Assembly (NCBI GenBank): GCA_026390595.1
Contig: JAPLFQ010000030.1
Coordinates: 62,001-126,000, forward strand
DNA from: Ignavibacteriales bacterium
GTDB lineage: Bacteria > Bacteroidota > Ignavibacteria > UBA10030
Reading direction: 5' to 3'
Length of the DNA: 64,000 nucleotides
Made by a program: the position numbers and the translations under genes. Below are positions 11,317-21,393 of the stretch, one piece after another. Under the pieces are notes generated by a model. That model was not told where the DNA came from and searched no databases. It was given only the letters and a program-made list of their open reading frames with translations. Every line of letters begins with the position of its first letter. Position 1 is the stretch's first letter.

Positions 11317-11577
11317 TTACTGCATCTTGAGATCGCGCAGCATGGCATCGACAACTTTTTCCGATACATCCCTCTGGAAATAGTACCCGCTGTCGACACG
11401 CTGCTGGATCTCGTCATATCTCTTCATTTGCGACGCAGTGAAGAGGCTGATTGCCTGGTCCGAGAGCTCGACCCGGTCTTCTTTTGATCCGACCTCGCGT
11501 TTGTCTTCTTCTTTCACCTTTTTGGATTTCAAAGGCTCTATCGGAAGACCACCTTTTGTTATTCTCGTGACGTCCAT
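11317..11577 (-). CDS. flgM: FlgM-like anti-sigma-28 factor
   Basis: An 86-residue protein with the FlgM pattern. A charged, probably disordered N-terminal half (EPLKSKKVKEEDKREV) is followed by DRVELSDQA, a helix ending YDEIQQRVDSGYY and a final helix SEKVVDAMLRDL. In FlgM families the C-terminal helices hold sigma-28 until the factor is exported through the completed hook-basal body. The assignment rests on motif order and size, and on the sigma-28 promoter of the flagellin gene in the same cluster. It starts 3 nt after the preceding gene ends, so it is translated within the same operon. Confidence 0.8.
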   Translation of the reverse strand: MDVTRITKGGLPIEPLKSKKVKEEDKREVGSKEDRVELSDQAISLFTASQMKRYDEIQQRVDSGYYFQRDVSEKVVDAMLRDLKMQ

Positions 11578-11580
11578 GGT

Positions 11581-11967
11581 CTAATCCTGTTTTTTGTACA
11601 GTTGGTTCGATTGATGCTTGTTGAGTTGGTGCAGCCGTGTGAGAAGTTCTTCCTCCTTCTCGGATTTCACTCTGTTGAATTCACATGCTGATGATTCAAT
11701 ATCAACCCTGATCATTCGACACTGTCGCAGCGTTTCTTGACCGAACCTCAGCTCGCTCTTCCGTTCGAGGGACAATACCCTTAGTCGGTTTAGGATTTCT
11801 CCGCGGGTTTCCAGGAGTATCTTCACCCGTCCGTAGTCTTCCGATTCCAGCAACCGGTTCAGTTCAACTGACACCACCCGGAATTGATCCAGATCATAGA
11901 GCAATTCGCTGGTTATGTTCTCCGGCCCCCGAGTTGCCACCCCGCCTGCCTGCTGCGTTTCTGTCAC
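11581..11967 (-). CDS. Small helical protein, FliT/FlgN-like flagellar chaperone candidate
   Basis: From GTG at 11967 this is a 128-residue, almost entirely helical, charged protein (LYDLDQFRVVSVELNRLLES; VKSEKEEELLTRLHQLNKH). The open frame runs upstream into flaG, but that extension is arginine- and serine-rich and looks like antisense-type noise, so I place the start just after the flaG stop (11972). A TTG at 11988 is an alternative. Its size, helical character and place directly after fliS-fliD-flaG fit FliT or FlgN, which chaperone the filament cap or hook-junction proteins. No family signature is clear enough to name it. Confidence 0.6.
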   Translation of the reverse strand: MTETQQAGGVATRGPENITSELLYDLDQFRVVSVELNRLLESEDYGRVKILLETRGEILNRLRVLSLERKSELRFGQETLRQCRMIRVDIESSACEFNRVKSEKEEELLTRLHQLNKHQSNQLYKKQD

Positions 11968-12337: not shown

Positions 12338-14281
12338 CTATATCAAGCCAAGCGAGGTATACAACTGTGTCATCATCGACTGCTGGTTGGTCGCGGCGGT
12401 GTAGGCGGCCTGAAGCTGGGCAAACTGATCCCGGTATTTGGTCACCAGCATCGTGATACGTTCATTCGCTTTCGTGATCTGCTTGTTGAGACTCGTCAGT
12501 TGTCCGCTGACGCCGTCTTTCGTTGCGTCCAATCGCCCGGCGGTTGCAACGAAACCCGACAGGCGGTTCTTGATTCGTGTGGCAATGCCGTCAGCGGAGT
12601 CGAAGACTTGGGCCAATTTCGAAATATCCGTAGTCGTGGCATTATTGAACTTCACTGCATCCGACACACTCAGAGCTCCGTCCTTGTCAGCTGTGATGCC
12701 AAAATCAGAGAGCGCCGCCGGATCAGCTCCCAGGCCTGTCACGGCTTTCGTCACATCCGTTTGCAGGTTGAACCGTAAGCTCAGGATCGTCGCATCCCCG
12801 GCAAAGATCTGGCGAACATTATTCGTAGGATCTACGGCCGTCTGCGACTTGATATGTGAGATCGCCGTGTTGTAATCGCTGAGAAACTTCTGGAGGTTGC
12901 TCCGGATTTGCCCGGAATTCACCGTGACGCCAAGTGTCATGTCAGAGGTAGTAAGACTGTTCAGCGTGAGAGTGACTCCCTGCAAGGCATCGGTGACTGT
13001 GTTAGTACCGCGGACAATATCGACGCCATCGATTTTCAACTTCGCATCCAATAGCCCTGAATCTGCTTTGAGAAAACCAGTCTGACTCGTCGAAGAAAGC
13101 GTCCGGGCGCCGGAAGCATAGGAGATTCCAGTCAAGCCCAGAGTGGTTGCAAGAGTCCCGGATACATCAGCCACGGCGCTGACCGCAGCTGCCGACCCTG
13201 TCGCTTTCGATGTGAGCACTAAACGTGAATGCGTGCCGTCATCGTTGACCACAGATGCCGTAACACCGAAATCTGTCTTTGCGGATACGGCCGAGGCTAT
13301 CGCGGACAGAACTGTCGCATTCGTCTGTCCCTGTGTAACGGCGACACTCACCTCAACCGCCGAACCCGTGCCCGTCGTGATCGTGAACTTCTTCGTCCCG
13401 TATCCCTCTCCTGCGAGGGCATCAGAAATGGTTGTCCCTGTCGAGACAAACTGCCTGGTGATAAGCGTATCGTTCTTGGCCAACTGGCTTACGCTGAGCG
13501 TATGAGTTCCGGTCGTTGCGCCCGAATCTGCTGAGGCCGTGACAGCGATGTCCGAACTTTGTGTCGCATAGGCGACGAATTTCGTTGAGCGGGCTGCGTT
13601 CAGCAGAGCGATACTCCCGGGAAGGCTGTAACCTCCAGGATTGCCAACGGGGTCATCGGCTGTCGCCGCGGCTGAGGCTCCCGTTCGGTTCGTTACGACA
13701 GAATCCGACAATCCTATGCTGTCAAGCAACGTCCCCGCGCCGACATCAATGAGCGTAATCGCGTGCTGAGAGCCTGTGGTCTTGCTTGTCAGCACGAGCT
13801 TCTCTTTTCCATCTGCCAGCTGCGATACCGAGGCGGTCAGAAGCTGGTTCGCCGTACCTGATGCGTTGATCGCATTGGCGATGGACGTAAGGACTGTGTC
13901 ATTCGTGTCGTCCTTTGCGATTGTGACGTCGACCGTCACATCGGTTCCACCCATCATGATCTTGATCTGCCGGGTTGCGCTCCCGGCGAGCTTTTCAGCT
14001 GCGGTCAGTTCGCTCGTCGCAATGGTAGTCGAGGCGTTCGTGAAACGCGATGAGTTGAGAACATCCACACTTTCAGACCGGGACACTGCAAGGCCGCCGG
14101 CGGTCTCGTAGAGCGCCTGCAGCTTCGCCTTCATTGTCGAGAGGGACGTGATCCTGGCATTGAGCGTCGTCTTTTTGTCCGTCAGCGGCGTCACAGATTT
14201 GCTCTGGAGGCTCGACTTATACTGAGCGACGAGACTGTCAATAGACGACGAGAGTGATCCTATGGATGATGCATCAGCCAT
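12338..14281 (-). CDS. fliD: Flagellar filament cap protein FliD
   Basis: A 647-residue FliD (HAP2), which caps the growing filament and helps flagellin fold. The N-terminal FliD domain starts with SIGSLSSSIDSLVAQYKSS. The centre holds repeated Ig-like units rich in Ser, Thr and Ala, including two related stretches with SVSQLA(D/K). The C-terminal FliD domain includes DFGITADKDGALSV and a coiled coil ending LYTSLGLI. It is longer than the usual 450-500 residues because of the extra central repeats, which would be the surface-exposed part. The start ATG at 14281 has AAGGA about eight bases before it. Confidence 0.95.
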   Translation of the reverse strand: MADASSIGSLSSSIDSLVAQYKSSLQSKSVTPLTDKKTTLNARITSLSTMKAKLQALYETAGGLAVSRSESVDVLNSSRFTNASTTIATSELTAAEKLAGSATRQIKIMMGGTDVTVDVTIAKDDTNDTVLTSIANAINASGTANQLLTASVSQLADGKEKLVLTSKTTGSQHAITLIDVGAGTLLDSIGLSDSVVTNRTGASAAATADDPVGNPGGYSLPGSIALLNAARSTKFVAYATQSSDIAVTASADSGATTGTHTLSVSQLAKNDTLITRQFVSTGTTISDALAGEGYGTKKFTITTGTGSAVEVSVAVTQGQTNATVLSAIASAVSAKTDFGVTASVVNDDGTHSRLVLTSKATGSAAAVSAVADVSGTLATTLGLTGISYASGARTLSSTSQTGFLKADSGLLDAKLKIDGVDIVRGTNTVTDALQGVTLTLNSLTTSDMTLGVTVNSGQIRSNLQKFLSDYNTAISHIKSQTAVDPTNNVRQIFAGDATILSLRFNLQTDVTKAVTGLGADPAALSDFGITADKDGALSVSDAVKFNNATTTDISKLAQVFDSADGIATRIKNRLSGFVATAGRLDATKDGVSGQLTSLNKQITKANERITMLVTKYRDQFAQLQAAYTAATNQQSMMTQLYTSLGLI

Positions 14282-14320: not shown

Positions 14321-14728
14321 CTACAGGTTGAATGCCTGTGCCCATGTGGCACGCAGTTCTTCCAGCACATCCGCTGCGTCATTCATCTTGCCCTTGCGAA
14401 TGCAATACTTACAGTATTCGTAGAGCCTGAAGAGACCAACTGCTATCTCTTCATGTTCAAAATTCAAACCGACGATAAGTTCGTTGATAGCCCTCTTCGC
14501 CAGGTGGGGGTCATTACTCCTGCAAGCGTTTAGCGAGATCCTGTAGAGCTTGTCGATGACCTGGACTGGTGTCAGATTCAGGAGCTGTTCATTCCGATAC
14601 TTCTTGGCAGCCGTTGAGTACTGATCTTGCTTCTTCGGTGCCTGTACAGCTTCCGGCACGCCGAATGTCTTCAATACCTCCGACTCGATTTCAGTGTTCA
14701 ACACGCTGGTCAACGGTGAGGTTTGCAT
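14321..14728 (-). CDS. fliS: Flagellin export chaperone FliS
   Basis: A 135-residue helical protein of the FliS family. After a variable N-terminus comes the four-helix bundle with YRNEQLLNLTPVQVIDKLYR, HLAKRAINELIVGLNFEHEE and a final AADVLEELRATWAQAF. FliS binds the C-terminal D0 region of flagellin in the cytoplasm and keeps it from polymerising before export. It lies between flagellin and fliD on the same strand, as in many flagellar operons. Confidence 0.93.
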   Translation of the reverse strand: MQTSPLTSVLNTEIESEVLKTFGVPEAVQAPKKQDQYSTAAKKYRNEQLLNLTPVQVIDKLYRISLNACRSNDPHLAKRAINELIVGLNFEHEEIAVGLFRLYEYCKYCIRKGKMNDAADVLEELRATWAQAFNL

Positions 14729-14836: not shown

Positions 14837-16003
14837 TTATCGGAAGAGCGACAAGAATACCTGCGGTGACTGGTTGGCTTGCGCCAATTGTGCCGTCGCA
14901 GTTTGCTGCAGGACCTGGAGCTTCACTGCGGAGATCTGTTCCTTCGCAATGTCTGCATCCAGGATTCTGCTCTTTGCAGCTTCCGTGTTGGTAACCGACG
15001 TCGTCAACATATCTGACTTCGCCTGGAGACGATTGATCTGTGCACCGATGTTTCCGATGACACCGAGGACCGTTCCGATTGCAGAATCAACGTTGTCCTT
15101 GAAGGTATTGGTGATGGAGGCGCTTGTGATTGCGCCACCCGCAGCACCGAGGAGCGACGTTGAAGTCACAGAGGTACTGAGGTTAACCGAGAACGACTCT
15201 GTGCGAGCTTCACCGACCTGCCAGGATGGATTCGATCCGGCAGACGAGGTAACCGTTTTGGTGCTCATAGCATCGGCCAGTTCCTGCGCCGACAATGTTC
15301 CCGCTGAACCCAACATCGTGACGCTGGCGTTGTGGAAGCTGAAGGTCTTCTTGGCGCCTGCGGCGAGTCCGCCAACTGTGCTGATGTCAACCGAGTTCGT
15401 TCCGTCGCTTACGGTGACTTTGTTTGCGCCAGCCGTGAAGGTGAAGGTAGCGCTGGCTGCAGCACCGCTGACATCCACACTGTCAACAACCATCGAGTGG
15501 GCATTGGAGGTAATTGTGGTACCTACAGTTCCCGCCGTTCCGGCTGCCGTGATGGTGGACTTGAAGCTGCCGTTGATGATGGAGATACCGTTGAACTTGG
15601 TCTGCGTGGCGGCCTGATCAATTTCAGACGCCAGTTGATCAATTTCAGCGGCGAGTGCATCTTTTTCAGCCGAGGAGAAGCCCGCGTTGGTGAAACGCGT
15701 GACTTTATCCTTGACTTGCGTCAGAAGGTCGGCAATTGTCGAATAACCGCCTTCAGCAACGCTCAACAGGTTCATCGCATCGCCAACGTTGTCACTGGCA
15801 GCATTCAATGAACGGATACGGCCTTCCATTTTCTTGGATATGACGTAGCCGGATGCATCATCCGATGCCGAGTTGATTTTCTTGCCACTGGCAAGGCGAA
15901 TTTGATGGACACCAAGTTCCGCGTTGACCTTGTTCAATGCGTTGAGGGCATTGAGCGCAGAAATGTTGGTGTTGATCCGGGAACCACCTGATAATGCTGC
16001 CAT
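14837..16003 (-). CDS. fliC: Flagellin
   Basis: A 388-residue flagellin. The conserved N-terminal D0/D1 (RINTNISALNALNALN, LASGKKINSASDDASGYVIS) and the C-terminal D1/D0 (TDAKSRI-type helix, then LAQANQSPQVFLSLFR) are intact. The variable middle (about 140-290) is Ser/Thr/Ala-rich, a typical surface for O-glycosylation. The start at ATG 16003 is chosen because GGAGGA lies five bases upstream and the product then begins MAALSGGSRINTNIS. An ATG at 16015 would overlap that ribosome site. A sigma-28 promoter lies at 16088-16114. Two glycosyltransferase genes lie immediately upstream. Confidence 0.96.
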   Translation of the reverse strand: MAALSGGSRINTNISALNALNALNKVNAELGVHQIRLASGKKINSASDDASGYVISKKMEGRIRSLNAASDNVGDAMNLLSVAEGGYSTIADLLTQVKDKVTRFTNAGFSSAEKDALAAEIDQLASEIDQAATQTKFNGISIINGSFKSTITAAGTAGTVGTTITSNAHSMVVDSVDVSGAAASATFTFTAGANKVTVSDGTNSVDISTVGGLAAGAKKTFSFHNASVTMLGSAGTLSAQELADAMSTKTVTSSAGSNPSWQVGEARTESFSVNLSTSVTSTSLLGAAGGAITSASITNTFKDNVDSAIGTVLGVIGNIGAQINRLQAKSDMLTTSVTNTEAAKSRILDADIAKEQISAVKLQVLQQTATAQLAQANQSPQVFLSLFR

Positions 16004-16087
16004 AATTTCCTCCATGAAATTAGGTTGTTTGGATGATGATCAGGCTTCCATGCCTGACTGTATGAGCCTTGTTGGCTTCTGTGTATA

Positions 16088-16184: not shown

Positions 16185-17723
16185 TCAAAGAGGCAGATCC
16201 CCTGCGGGTATGGCAGCCTGAGATGCGATTTTTTCCAAATATGCCAATGCCAGTTGAAAATCCCGGGCCTTCAACGCAGCCTGAACTGCGATACGGTTGA
16301 AATTCATAGAGGAAACTCTGCACGTCTCACCTCGATGCACCTCCGCCAGCCCTTTTTCAAATTCACCGCGGCTGAGATACGTCTGAATCATCAGGACAGA
16401 CGTGTCATCGTTGTGCACCGAATGGGTTCGGGAATACTCTGCAACAATTTCAAAGGCTTCCCAATCGAGCCTTGTACTGTAGAACCCGAGGAGGTGTTGA
16501 ATGACGCTCACGTCGCTTCCATGACGGGAGATCAGGTTGCGAAGATCCTCGCGCGAGGCGACCCGATCAGAACGACGGAGGTCCGCTTCCAAGTAGCGAT
16601 CAAGAACATCCTCGTAGTAGATGTCGTTTGCCGCGGCTTTGTAGAAGCATTCGGCTGCCTGCCCCCAGTCGCCCAGATCGGCATGACAACGTCCGCACAT
16701 ATAGTCCAGTTCAACGGAGGGTATTGTTGCATCGAATGAGACGTCGATCTTGTCCTTACGAAGTAGATCTTTCTGCATATCCCGGATTCGAAGCATGCTT
16801 GCCAGCGCCTCGGCCGGCTTGCCAAGCGCAAGATACGCGGACGCCTGTAATCTCGGCGATGTGACTTGATTCGGGGCAATCCGCGCAGAATCAGCGGCGT
16901 ACCACAGGGACCCGGCAGGATCATCCAGAAGCAGGGAAAACGAGGCAAGAGCATTCAATGTCGAGGCGCTAACGTGTGTCGGGACTGAGGCTAATTCCAG
17001 AACTTTATTGAGTTCAATGAGAGCTTCCTCGTATCTCCCGACTATTCCAAGCGTATTCCCAAGCTGATACCGGGCCATCGGGTCGGAGGGTTCCTCCTGC
17101 AACTGTGCGCCTAGCAGATCGATGTTACGCTGACACTTCCTCCTGGTTGTCTCGACCGACTGCTGATAACCCAAATGCAGGATGGTGATCCCTGATGGGC
17201 GAACCGTATACTGGTGCCCCAGACTCGAGTGAAACAGCTGCTCGTGGACTCTGCCTTTGAAACGGAATTCAGGAATGCGCCGAAAGAGACGCGGGTACAG
17301 CCCAATATTGTTGACCTTACCCTTCGGCAGCCATTCTTCGCCAACGATGGAACATCGAAAAGCTATTGCACTTGTATCTCTGGTCAGAGATTCAATTTCC
17401 CCGCGTCCCTCTTCCGCCAGCCGCTCGTCTGCATCGACGTAGAGAACCCAATCCCCCGTGCAGCGGCGAAGGGACTCGTTTCTCGCTGATGAGTAGTCAT
17501 CACACCACTCGATTTGAGATACGGCGGCACCGAAGGTACGCGCAATCTCGATCGTCCGGTCAGTCGACCCGGTGTCAACCACGATGATCTCATCAGCGAT
17601 GTCCTTGATGCTTTCGAGGCAGCCGGCAAGAAACTGCTCCTCATCGCGGACGATCATACTCACTGAGACCCGTGGCCCGGCTCCGGAACGGTGCTTGGAT
17701 CGGGTGTTGTCTTCTCGGGTCAT
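16185..17723 (-). CDS. Family 2 glycosyltransferase with C-terminal TPR-like helices
   Basis: A 512-residue protein. The GT2 (GT-A fold) domain begins RVSVSMIVRDEEQFLAGCL, with IIVVDTGSTDRTIEIA and the metal-binding DxD region WVLYVDADERL. The subtype resembles WaaE/SunS-like transferases. From about residue 230 onward the protein is helical, with TPR-like units (SDPMARYQLGNTLGIVGRYE; CHADLGDWGQAAECFYKAA). I start it at ATG 17723, just after the preceding gene; the longer open frame has an implausible Arg/Ser-rich extension. Its place next to flagellin and after the giant glycosyltransferase suggests flagellin or surface glycan modification. The substrate is unknown. Confidence 0.85.
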   Translation of the reverse strand: MTREDNTRSKHRSGAGPRVSVSMIVRDEEQFLAGCLESIKDIADEIIVVDTGSTDRTIEIARTFGAAVSQIEWCDDYSSARNESLRRCTGDWVLYVDADERLAEEGRGEIESLTRDTSAIAFRCSIVGEEWLPKGKVNNIGLYPRLFRRIPEFRFKGRVHEQLFHSSLGHQYTVRPSGITILHLGYQQSVETTRRKCQRNIDLLGAQLQEEPSDPMARYQLGNTLGIVGRYEEALIELNKVLELASVPTHVSASTLNALASFSLLLDDPAGSLWYAADSARIAPNQVTSPRLQASAYLALGKPAEALASMLRIRDMQKDLLRKDKIDVSFDATIPSVELDYMCGRCHADLGDWGQAAECFYKAAANDIYYEDVLDRYLEADLRRSDRVASREDLRNLISRHGSDVSVIQHLLGFYSTRLDWEAFEIVAEYSRTHSVHNDDTSVLMIQTYLSRGEFEKGLAEVHRGETCRVSSMNFNRIAVQAALKARDFQLALAYLEKIASQAAIPAGDLPL

Positions 17724-17757: not shown

Positions 17758-20700
17758 TCAAGCAGCGACTGAGCATTCCAGGACCTTTTCCTTTGGTAAA
17801 ACCCATTCCGGCTTGAGGTTCGAAGCGGCCTCGAACATTTGCCGGGCCACGTCATTGAATCCGGCATACAAGAAACACAGCCCCAAACCATAGCAGGCTT
17901 CAGCAGACTCTGGATTCTCCCGGAGCGCACGCTCGTACTGTTCCCGCGCCTCCTGGAGCCTTTCAGTTCGGAGGAAACTGTCGCCCAGGTACATGCTGAC
18001 ATCATACATCGTGATCTCCGATTCCACTCTTGCGGCTTTCAACAATCCGTCTTGGACAAGGAGGAGCTGCGCCTGAGTATCTTCCAAACGACCTTGTTCC
18101 ATCTTCTGAACCCCTTTCGATAATGAACCCAGTATACGCTCTGAAGCAGCAGGTTGCTTCCAGACAAACCGCTCCACCGCACCCATTGGCAGCAAGGGAA
18201 CTCTGTGCCGGGCCGGATCGAATGGCCGGGCGAGTATTCTCGCGACGTTGACAGGAGTCCCATAAGGATCGGCCGGCGGAATTCCCCACTTCCTCTTGAA
18301 CATCTCCCACGCTCCCAGCATGGACTCATTGTACACTTTGTCCCCGCGCCCCTGCGGCCCCCCCGTATGATGGATGAACACGTCATCTGCAATCGCGAGT
18401 CTGAAACCGGCCAGTTGTGCCCTCAGTGAATAGTCGTCGTCGTCGAAGCCGAACAGTTTCCCGAAGGCATAATCAATGCATCCAATCCGATCTACAACCG
18501 TTCGGGTGATGAACATGCAGAAGCCGACAAGTCGCTGAGCTGGAAGCAACTCACCGGCCCGTGCGGCGGCGTGTCGGTGTGCGTAGGCCTCCAAACTCTC
18601 AAGGGCTTCATACCGGGCGTCAGGGACACATTGTGGCCCGGAGGCATAATTCGTGCGTGGACCAATAATCCCGAGAGTTGAGTCACGCTCGGCATGTGCG
18701 ATCAGCCGGCCCAACCATCCGTCTGTAACGATGGTGTCGTCATCGAGCGATACCAGATACTTCCCCCGCGCTATAGACATAGCCTGCGCCCGCGCAGGTG
18801 AATACCCGATGTTCTCGGGATTCTTCACCAGCACAATGCCAGGAAGAGTTTGGAGATATTCGCTTGTTCCATCATTCCGGGCATTATCGACAACGATAAT
18901 CTCAATGGGAAGAGGTGTGTTCTTCAGGATAGACTCGACACAGAGCTTGATATGGCTGAGACCGTTATACGCTATGATGATGATGGAGGCACATGGTGAG
19001 TCACCCAGTGCAGACCGGGAGCTCCCCTGATGCGTCTTCTTGAACCTCAAAGGCATCTCCTGATGTACACTCCGTGGCACAATGGACCCGAAAGCTTCCC
19101 CATCAATCCTGTACCCGTGTTCAAACAGAGCAGCCAGAGTGTCCGTCCCGTAACCGGCCAGCGCCCCCGATCGATTATTGTATACGGTTTGAACTTTGTT
19201 GATCGGGTTGCAGAAGGCGACTGAGTGCTGGAACGATAGAAGGAACGATTGCCGTTTGCTGAACGACAGCTTCCACGCATCAAGGGACATTTCAAGCGTG
19301 TTCGGGTTCTTGAACTGAAGCTCACCGAGGAGCGGCAGCAGATCTGCCGAACGATAGATGGAACTGGACAACTCCAGGGGATAGCCAAAATCGAGTTCCG
19401 CTTGTGTCCATTGATACTTCAGAATGCCCGGGGCGCACTCAAAACGATCGGGCACCGACTGAGGTTTGTTTACCATGTAACAGTATTGCGTGTTCGTACT
19501 CAACCGGAGAGAGAATCCGAGAGCATCCGGATTACGCCGCAGGTTCTCAACTGCTGTGTTGGTTGAGAAACGCCGGATGAAAACGTTGTCATCGACAAGG
19601 AACATCACTGCGTCGTATGAGCCGATCATGGATAACAGGTCCGTTTTAAAGAGTGTCTCACGGACGAATTCTACTGACTCGTAATCCTTCATGAGCCGCT
19701 GGTATTGTTTCAGATGAAGCGGCCCGGATGTCGCGTACAGAACCTTCACAGCCAGCGCCGACGGATCCTCGCAGCACACGAACAGCGAATTCAGCATGCA
19801 TTCCAATTGCATCGCACGGTCTTTGCTGAACACAATGCAGACTACTTTTTCCCCCGCGGCATCCGTGGCATCTTCACGGGAGACAGCAATCTTGACTCTG
19901 CGGACTCCCTTTGATTTCAGAATTGCCGCCCGATGGACGCCGTCGAGAATCTGATACGTGCCGGCGTCAATCTGCCTTGCAAGGATCAGGCTTTGCTTCG
20001 CTTCCGCAGTCTCGAGCCCGTACCGGAAATCCTGAATCATCCTGTCAAACGCCTCAGGAAAATGATCGTCCGTCAGTTCGATTCCCTGATGCTGCGCGTG
20101 ATAGCGATCATATGGCTCCCTCTCCCCTGTGACGTAGAGGAAGTGTGGAGTCCTGGACACCGGCACCAATCCTGATCCAAGAATATTTGCATACAGAGAA
20201 TCGCAATCGACTTCTTTCACCTCATAATCGCTGAATCGACCAATATGGTAGGGCACATCCAGCTTCGCATTTGGCTCTCTCGTGTAGTAATCCAAGGGGG
20301 GCAAATCCAACACCCTCAGCACGTGCTCAACCTGACTTTCATAATCCGACGCATGAATTACGTGATCCTCAGTTCTCACTGCCCCCACGCGAGGATTGAA
20401 CAGGTCTCGTATGCCATCTTTGAGTTCTCGCACGACCGTGCATTGGATATGCCGAAACGATCCCTCTCCCACGTACTGTTCCTTTGGGGCCTTGTTCCGG
20501 ACGAGAATGAACAGCACTTCAGGCCGCGTCGTAAGGAGGTATCGGGTCTTTGCGTAGAGGTGTTCGAACGGGACTGTATCGCAAGCGTAAACATCAGAAA
20601 CAAATTTGCCTATGTCATTGATCTGCTTGCGGATCAGGGCGACGATGTCGAATCCGCCATGGGATCTGACAAGTTCAAGTATCTGGGATGTGTATGCCAA

Positions 20701-21393
20701 GCCGTGTCCCCAGATCATGAAATAGTCCATCCGCGGCCCGCTGTTCCCGAAGCTGCGGGGTGTCATCTCATTCCTGAATGCGACCTGCAGGTTCTTTGTT
20801 TCGAGATCGAGAGCAACCTCCACATTTGTGTGCTTCCTGAGAACTTCGATGAATGCCAACGAGTTTTGTGACTTCACGTATTCGAGGTGTTTTTGCTTAT
20901 CCGGTCGTTCGTTCATCCATTCCAGAAACTCCAGAAAACGCAGGGCAGTATCATGCTCCGGAGCAGGAACCCAGATAGGGCTCCCCTCGCACGACAGTTC
21001 TCGCCTCGTATCGAGGACCACCTCGTGGTAATGCGGGTCGACAACGATGTTTCTGTAGATGTTCAGCGAATCGATGAGATCGAATCGTATGTTCAATCGG
21101 ACTGATTCCGGTGGAAAGAAATCTATGTGGCGGTGTATGGCGGCATTGCTGACTGTGATTCTGTAGCCCTTGTCTTCGTATCGCTTACCTACTTCGAGTA
21201 TATGCTCCTGTACGGCGTCAGCGTCCCTGCAGAGGATATCGATGTCTGAGTAATCGCTATAGTTGGGGAAATGACCAGGGAGTTTCAGAATCACGTACTC
21301 TCGCATTTCCTCGAACATACCACGCACATCAACAAGATTCGAAAACACCTCAGAACTGCCTGAGTGCCGTGCACTTATACCCGTCGAACTCAT
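17758..21393 (-). CDS. Giant multidomain glycosyltransferase: NTase-like, ParB-like, two GT-A domains, TPR
   Basis: A 1211-residue fusion. Residues 20-160 look like a nucleotidyltransferase fold (YSDYSDIDILCRD, Asp50 and Asp52). Residues 200-385 are unassigned. Residues about 385-505 resemble a ParB/sulfiredoxin-type domain (YQILDGVHRAAILKSKGV). Residues 515-760 look like a first GT-A domain (VVCIVFSKDRAMQLECML; FLVDDNVFI). Residues 800-1050 are a clear GT2 domain (ASIIIIAYNGLSHIKLCVES; YLVSLDDDTIVTDGWLGRL; FGFDDDDYSLRAQLAG). Residues 1085-1200 are TPR. The start ATG 21393 has GGAGAG eight bases upstream. It lies 34 nt upstream of the second glycosyltransferase. It may prepare and transfer a sugar to flagellin or another surface polymer, but the acceptor and donor are not evident. 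The GT2 and TPR calls are firm; the N-terminal and ParB-like calls are tentative. Confidence 0.82.
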   Translation of the reverse strand: MSSTGISARHSGSSEVFSNLVDVRGMFEEMREYVILKLPGHFPNYSDYSDIDILCRDADAVQEHILEVGKRYEDKGYRITVSNAAIHRHIDFFPPESVRLNIRFDLIDSLNIYRNIVVDPHYHEVVLDTRRELSCEGSPIWVPAPEHDTALRFLEFLEWMNERPDKQKHLEYVKSQNSLAFIEVLRKHTNVEVALDLETKNLQVAFRNEMTPRSFGNSGPRMDYFMIWGHGLAYTSQILELVRSHGGFDIVALIRKQINDIGKFVSDVYACDTVPFEHLYAKTRYLLTTRPEVLFILVRNKAPKEQYVGEGSFRHIQCTVVRELKDGIRDLFNPRVGAVRTEDHVIHASDYESQVEHVLRVLDLPPLDYYTREPNAKLDVPYHIGRFSDYEVKEVDCDSLYANILGSGLVPVSRTPHFLYVTGEREPYDRYHAQHQGIELTDDHFPEAFDRMIQDFRYGLETAEAKQSLILARQIDAGTYQILDGVHRAAILKSKGVRRVKIAVSREDATDAAGEKVVCIVFSKDRAMQLECMLNSLFVCCEDPSALAVKVLYATSGPLHLKQYQRLMKDYESVEFVRETLFKTDLLSMIGSYDAVMFLVDDNVFIRRFSTNTAVENLRRNPDALGFSLRLSTNTQYCYMVNKPQSVPDRFECAPGILKYQWTQAELDFGYPLELSSSIYRSADLLPLLGELQFKNPNTLEMSLDAWKLSFSKRQSFLLSFQHSVAFCNPINKVQTVYNNRSGALAGYGTDTLAALFEHGYRIDGEAFGSIVPRSVHQEMPLRFKKTHQGSSRSALGDSPCASIIIIAYNGLSHIKLCVESILKNTPLPIEIIVVDNARNDGTSEYLQTLPGIVLVKNPENIGYSPARAQAMSIARGKYLVSLDDDTIVTDGWLGRLIAHAERDSTLGIIGPRTNYASGPQCVPDARYEALESLEAYAHRHAAARAGELLPAQRLVGFCMFITRTVVDRIGCIDYAFGKLFGFDDDDYSLRAQLAGFRLAIADDVFIHHTGGPQGRGDKVYNESMLGAWEMFKRKWGIPPADPYGTPVNVARILARPFDPARHRVPLLPMGAVERFVWKQPAASERILGSLSKGVQKMEQGRLEDTQAQLLLVQDGLLKAARVESEITMYDVSMYLGDSFLRTERLQEAREQYERALRENPESAEACYGLGLCFLYAGFNDVARQMFEAASNLKPEWVLPKEKVLECSVAA

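Follow-up and report, generated by a model that had tools for sequence, protein, structure and literature searches.

A candidate mobile cassette of nucleotidyltransferase-like, NDK-fold and ParB-fold domains, joined to glycosyltransferases beside flagellin genes and in phages

Organisation of the locus

The window, i.e. the whole stretch of 64,000 nucleotides analysed here (Ignavibacteriales bacterium, contig JAPLFQ010000030.1, positions 62,001 to 126,000), carries on its minus strand an open reading frame that runs from an ATG at 21393 to 17758, codes for 1211 residues with no internal stop, and is present as a single copy in its genome. The sequence-only reading had placed it at exactly these positions. 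The predicted domains, from the N- to the C-terminus, and the genes that follow are listed below.

20815..21351, minus strand: nucleotidyltransferase (NTase)-like domain, approximately residues 15-193 (SDID 49-52, D91, RFD 103-105)
20290..20733, minus strand: NDK-fold domain, residues 221-368 (HIQC 315-318, HVIHASD 344-350)
19879..20280, minus strand: ParB/sulfiredoxin-fold domain, residues 372-505 (DGVHR 484-488)
19018..19845, minus strand: likely divergent GT-A domain, residues 517-792 (LVDDN 599-603)
18364..18987, minus strand: GT2 domain, residues 803-1010 (Pfam Glycos_transf_2, E 4.3e-27, match 803-919)
17806..17994, minus strand: TPR repeats, residues 1134-1196 (Pfam TPR_2 and TPR_16, E ~1e-8, match 1134-1190)
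16185..17723, minus strand: SunS-like GT2 and TPR protein, second gene of the run (likely start ATG 17723, 34 bases past the stop of the first gene)
14837..16015, minus strand: flagellin (Pfam Flagellin_N and Flagellin_C)
14321-14728, minus strand: FliS-like open reading frame, between flagellin and FliD (Pfam FliS)
12338..14281, minus strand: FliD filament cap (Pfam FliD_N and FliD_C)

The 1211-residue gene and the genes for the SunS-like GT2-TPR protein, flagellin, the FliS-like protein and FliD lie on the same strand and read as one transcription unit; promoter and terminator scans gave signals no higher than those of shuffles. A second GT-TPR protein had already been noticed nearby, and its gene sits between the 1211-residue gene and flagellin.

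Domain folds of the 1211-residue protein

At the Pfam level, only the GT2 and TPR domains of the protein scored above cut-off, the remaining 790 residues being resolved via relatives. A fusion of NTase-like, ParB-like, two GT-A and TPR domains had been proposed, and these parts hold up; structure prediction and fold search supported the ParB-like and, less firmly, the NTase-like domain, and revealed a sixth domain, the NDK fold (residues 219-365), which had been overlooked.

The case for this NDK fold is strong and comes from modelling. Residues 205-510 were modelled with AF2 from five sequences (pLDDT 83.6, pTM 0.80), and the fold search with this model returned 141 matches at E<=1e-3. The top 50 PDB matches were all NDKs, with E-values from 1.1e-5 (probability 1.00) to 2.5e-4 and TM-scores on the target of 0.53-0.68. 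As for sequence and profile comparisons, residues 219-365 had no NDK match in Pfam, NCBIfam or PHROGs, and hhalign against canonical NDKs gave a weak match (P 0.0056, over 24 columns only, covering the first helix and second strand), so that the assignment was settled by fold comparison alone. Among viral models (BFVD), the same model matched ParB/sulfiredoxin proteins. Over ~163-176 columns it also matched giant-virus proteins annotated as "glycosyltransferase", from Catovirus (A0A1V0SAX2, 863 residues, 23% identity) and Yasminevirus (A0A5K0UAL1), and likewise an uncharacterised protein of Mimivirus LCMiAC01; these matches suggest that glycosyltransferases there, too, carry an NDK-like domain.

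Concerning the ParB-like part, the profile match to SbnI is weak (PDB, E 0.057), and the homologue on phage contig L029 matches phage ParB families at E ~1e-3. The DG-x-HR motif on this ParB/sulfiredoxin fold is near-invariant over the eight loci described below, phages and bacteria alike. ParB-fold proteins are in some cases free-serine kinases (PMC5120207), and they can bind several NTPs, perhaps non-catalytically (PMC12704722).

The NTase-like fold at residues ~15-193, also a matter of modelling, is less firmly supported than the NDK fold. The closest Pfam family was NTP_transf_5 (PF14907; E 0.017, 15.1 bits, below the curated cut-off of 31.2), and hhalign with one PF14907 member failed to match. 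An AF2 model of the homologue from a genome of the same order (G035) reached a pLDDT of ~85 in its NTase part; the 50 fold matches listed for this NTase-GT model were mostly glycosyltransferases, with a single NTase-superfamily structure, the mimivirus poly(A) polymerase 4wse (E 1e-3). A profile search of PDB sequences found neither NDK nor NTase. Four aspartates (D50, D52, D91 and D105) are invariant in all eight loci and provide a DxD pair and a third carboxylate. Membership of the LicD family was rejected and LicD kept as an analogy, hhalign with the LicD protein of L057 giving a probability of 0.3% and Pfam LicD (PF04991) no match.

Residues 517-792 are likely a GT-A domain, judging from the model of the G035 homologue (predicted together with its NTase), which matches TarP, SpsA and other GT-A enzymes in fold; this model is weak (mean pLDDT 67.7), with its lowest confidence in the second half of the glycosyltransferase. 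No Pfam match was found in six members of this divergent family, nor any in NCBIfam or PHROGs for residues 510-790. Homologues occur in L004, G035, L057, L073, the L035 phage, G005 and a 735-kb phage.

The cassette in other loci

Seven further loci were compiled. One comes from a Sedimentisphaerales MAG, one from another genome of the window's order and five from phage contigs; the phage records are metagenomic and partly fragments.

L004, Sedimentisphaerales MAG: one 2266-residue chain NTase-NDK-ParB-GT plus more GT2; FlgL/flagellin-type gene upstream, FliD downstream
G035, same order: NDK-ParB behind an FkbM methyltransferase domain; next gene NTase-GT-GT2; then GT-TPR, flagellin and FliD
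L029, phage contig: NDK-ParB, then NTase; near-identical copy in the 149-kb L033
L030, phage contig: NDK-ParB, NTase 1.4 kb on, two genes between
L035, phage contig of 344 kb: ParB alone, then NDK-NTase fused; GT member ~8 kb on
L057, phage contig: NTase-FkbM-NDK-ParB-GT in one chain
L073, phage contig: NDK-ParB, NTase and GT as three neighbouring genes

With the window included, HMMs detected the NTase, NDK-like and ParB-like parts within ~2.8 kb of each other in 8/8 loci, fused or as nearby genes and in varying orders, a count biased for the NDK-ParB pair and less so for the NTase, as most loci were found via NDK motifs or the NDK part. A scan by the NTase profile alone recovered four loci, each with NDK and ParB. 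The alignments are shallow, at five to nine sequences. Parts that work jointly would be expected to show just such a pattern, fused now in one order, now in another, and elsewhere split into adjacent genes. Moreover, the one-chain order NTase-NDK-ParB-GT recurs in two unrelated assemblies (L004, and L057, where an FkbM domain follows the NTase and the order is otherwise kept), so the domain order of the window's protein is no assembly artefact.

The divergent glycosyltransferase accompanies the triad in six of the eight loci. It also occurs without it, in G005, fused to a methyltransferase, and in the 735-kb phage, and is therefore a looser partner. The G005 fusion (L077 1-5310, G005:C307), from a congener, further includes a GT2 and lies beside a 1065-residue TPR-containing protein, where the contig ends; the member in the 735-kb phage (L084 14992-15795, LR756501.1) stands alone, with no triad within 15 kb.

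Other genes were observed around these loci. Two proteins, each in a glycan cluster (L076 2181-3533 and L004 6663-7712), have by eye the look of a sugar NTP-transferase fused to a HAD-phosphatase part, which might produce an activated phospho-unit; Pfam recognised in the two only a MobA-like NTP transferase, in L004. In phage contig L030, a DUF366 protein (11361-11945) follows the NTase.

Distribution

The cassette was found in 2 of 396 genomes of the phylum, and within the order credible matches came from 2 of 98 genomes; among 392 genomes of the phylum to which L004 belongs, the MAG of that locus is the only one to have it. Matches in G869 and G065 were dismissed as fortuitous (a short open reading frame antisense to another gene; stops inside), and so was one in L075. 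In the GenBank phage collection no relative of the NDK-ParB part was found, and the plasmid collection yielded only a weak, partial ParB match. The NDK parts of the phages and bacteria are 40-53% identical to that of the window, which indicates horizontal exchange.

Searches of an open-access library for this combination of domains returned nothing relevant, an absence that is not proof of novelty. A 2025 survey of ParB-fold proteins mentions neither nucleotidyltransferase nor nucleoside diphosphate kinase.

Neighbouring genes and the acceptor

A link to flagellin had been suggested for the protein, with homologues always lying away from surface polymer or flagellin genes as an outcome that would speak against the proposal. 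This outcome did not arise for the bacterial homologues: all three bacterial loci (window, L004 and G035) lie between or beside genes of the flagellar filament, with flagellin/FliD-type neighbours. The window and G035 share the order cassette, GT-TPR, flagellin, FliD, and the SunS-like GT2-TPR protein has a 36% identical counterpart in G035, likewise between cassette and flagellin. As for the phages, the glycan cluster of L057 and of L073 starts close to the gene of the major head protein. Both flagellin and the capsid protein are the chief building block of a structure that assembles itself, and this speaks for a product in which the glycan is bound to protein. Flagellin cannot be the sole acceptor, since five of the eight loci are metagenomic phage contigs in which none was seen; in the phages the target may perhaps be the capsid.

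These phage homologues, which lie in large glycosyltransferase clusters devoid of flagellin, would also suit an acceptor that is a surface or virion polysaccharide, the adjacency to fliC being incidental, and so would the rarity and mobility of the cassette. The position of 3/3 bacterial loci among flagellin/FliD-type genes argues against this, as do the three of three congeners tested, which lack the cassette together with any match to the window's flagellin, and we regard a polysaccharide acceptor as distinctly improbable. The window's flagellin (14837-16015) has no match in the five relatives searched, the three congeners included, so that flagella appear patchy in the order. All in all, a role in glycan modification is well supported and flagellin as the acceptor moderately so; the exact chemistry of the triad is put forward as a hypothesis.

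Proposed working and the chemistry of the triad

When the protein was first noticed, it was read as a fusion of several steps in a single glycan pathway, and the analysis supports this. For the window's protein, we give about an even chance to a cytoplasmic enzyme whose target is flagellin, or a glycan on its way to flagellin, and that consists of a mobile cassette with a lineage-specific GT2-TPR tail. The TPR repeats are proposed to be the acceptor binder, after FlmG of Caulobacter, a cytoplasmic glycosyltransferase whose TPR domain can bind flagellin (PMC7591256). The step order, substrates, acceptor and any activity are what we infer from the observed folds, conserved residues, co-occurrence and neighbours. 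First, the TPR repeats would hold flagellin before export, as in FlmG; second, the GT2 would attach the first sugar and the second GT-A extend it; third, the ParB/sulfiredoxin-fold domain would phosphorylate a small molecule in the manner of SerK/SbnI, the NTase would pass on a nucleotidyl group or a phospho-group, and phosphate would be relayed or recycled by the NDK-like domain via its histidine. A phosphate- or nucleotide-linked substituent would thereby be made and delivered on the spot.

In the NDK-like domain, His347 of HxxHx(S/T)D, the HIQC segment and the arginine belonging to the IR motif do not vary over the 8/8 loci. The NDK signature N-x-x-H-(G/A)-S-D is incomplete, its His being kept and its S-D mostly kept, with Asn replaced by His in all eight. 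The Lys-Pro-Asp (KPD) segment is replaced by IWG(H/N)G in seven loci of the eight and by FAHG in L073, in a register set by motif alignment and not by superposition. Having lost both KPD and the signature Asn, and with a normal NDK encoded elsewhere in the same genome, the domain is an NDK fold with a changed site and not an ordinary NDK. With these two elements replaced, the domain may be a nucleotide binder that catalyses nothing.

Its fold and conserved histidine would also fit a triad that only makes or recycles the sugar donor, the NTase or ParB domain activating a sugar or alcohol and the NDK-like domain returning NDP to NTP, with no phosphate on the product. Sugar-nucleotide enzymes nearby, including a MobA-like NTP transferase and an APH-like kinase in L004, point the same way. 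Such recycling nevertheless appears unlikely: the canonical KPD and Asn are not conserved, the genome has its normal NDK, and the NTase resembles the DxD nucleotidyltransferase superfamily and not the Rossmann-type pyrophosphorylases. Another possibility is that the triad includes at least one dead enzyme, used to bind nucleotide-sugars or to regulate the glycosyltransferases. The partly replaced NDK active site is in keeping with this, as is the known binding of NTPs by the ParB fold, perhaps without catalysis (PMC12704722). The invariant NTase aspartates and NDK histidine and the near-invariant ParB DGxHR argue instead for chemistry kept in at least part of the triad, and we consider the dead-enzyme explanation improbable.

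Returning to the phosphate- or nucleotide-linked product, we suggest tentatively, as the broader possibility, that the triad, usually with a new GT-A family, is an undescribed mobile cassette of bacteria and tailed phages, which would install such a unit on glycoproteins of self-assembling structures, i.e. flagella and phage heads. If so, NDK fold, ParB fold and NTase would form one unit of a glycosylation chemistry that family libraries do not recognise, and would offer a handle on the decoration of flagella and phage particles, along with a new GT-A family. ParB-fold proteins in glycan clusters would then be metabolic enzymes and not partition proteins.

Comparison with known systems

In the LicA-LicC-LicD phosphocholine pathway, a kinase, a nucleotidyltransferase and an NTase-fold phosphotransferase act in series on a glycan. 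The triad shares with it the idea of serial enzymes, but the protein families differ, and profile similarity with the LicD of L057 is undetectable. With NDK (PF00334), the NDK-like domain has in common the fold, the catalytic-type His of HxSD and the Arg of the IR motif, whereas the Pfam match is absent, KPD is replaced and His stands in place of the signature Asn. SerK and SbnI (PMC5120207, PMC12704722) resemble the ParB-like domain in their ParB-type fold, the DG-x-HR motif and the lack of a recognised DNA-binding domain; similarity to them is low, however, and the domain has its own conserved H/Y/G/Y/Y segment and is fused into glycan enzymes. Finally, FlmG shares with the window's protein a glycosyltransferase joined to TPR and a flagellin-linked gene, cytoplasmic modification of flagellin being presumed here. 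FlmG (PMC7591256) has one glycosyltransferase, an N-terminal TPR and no NTase, NDK or ParB part, whereas the 1211-residue protein combines all of these domains with two glycosyltransferases and carries its TPR, a short one, at the C-terminus.
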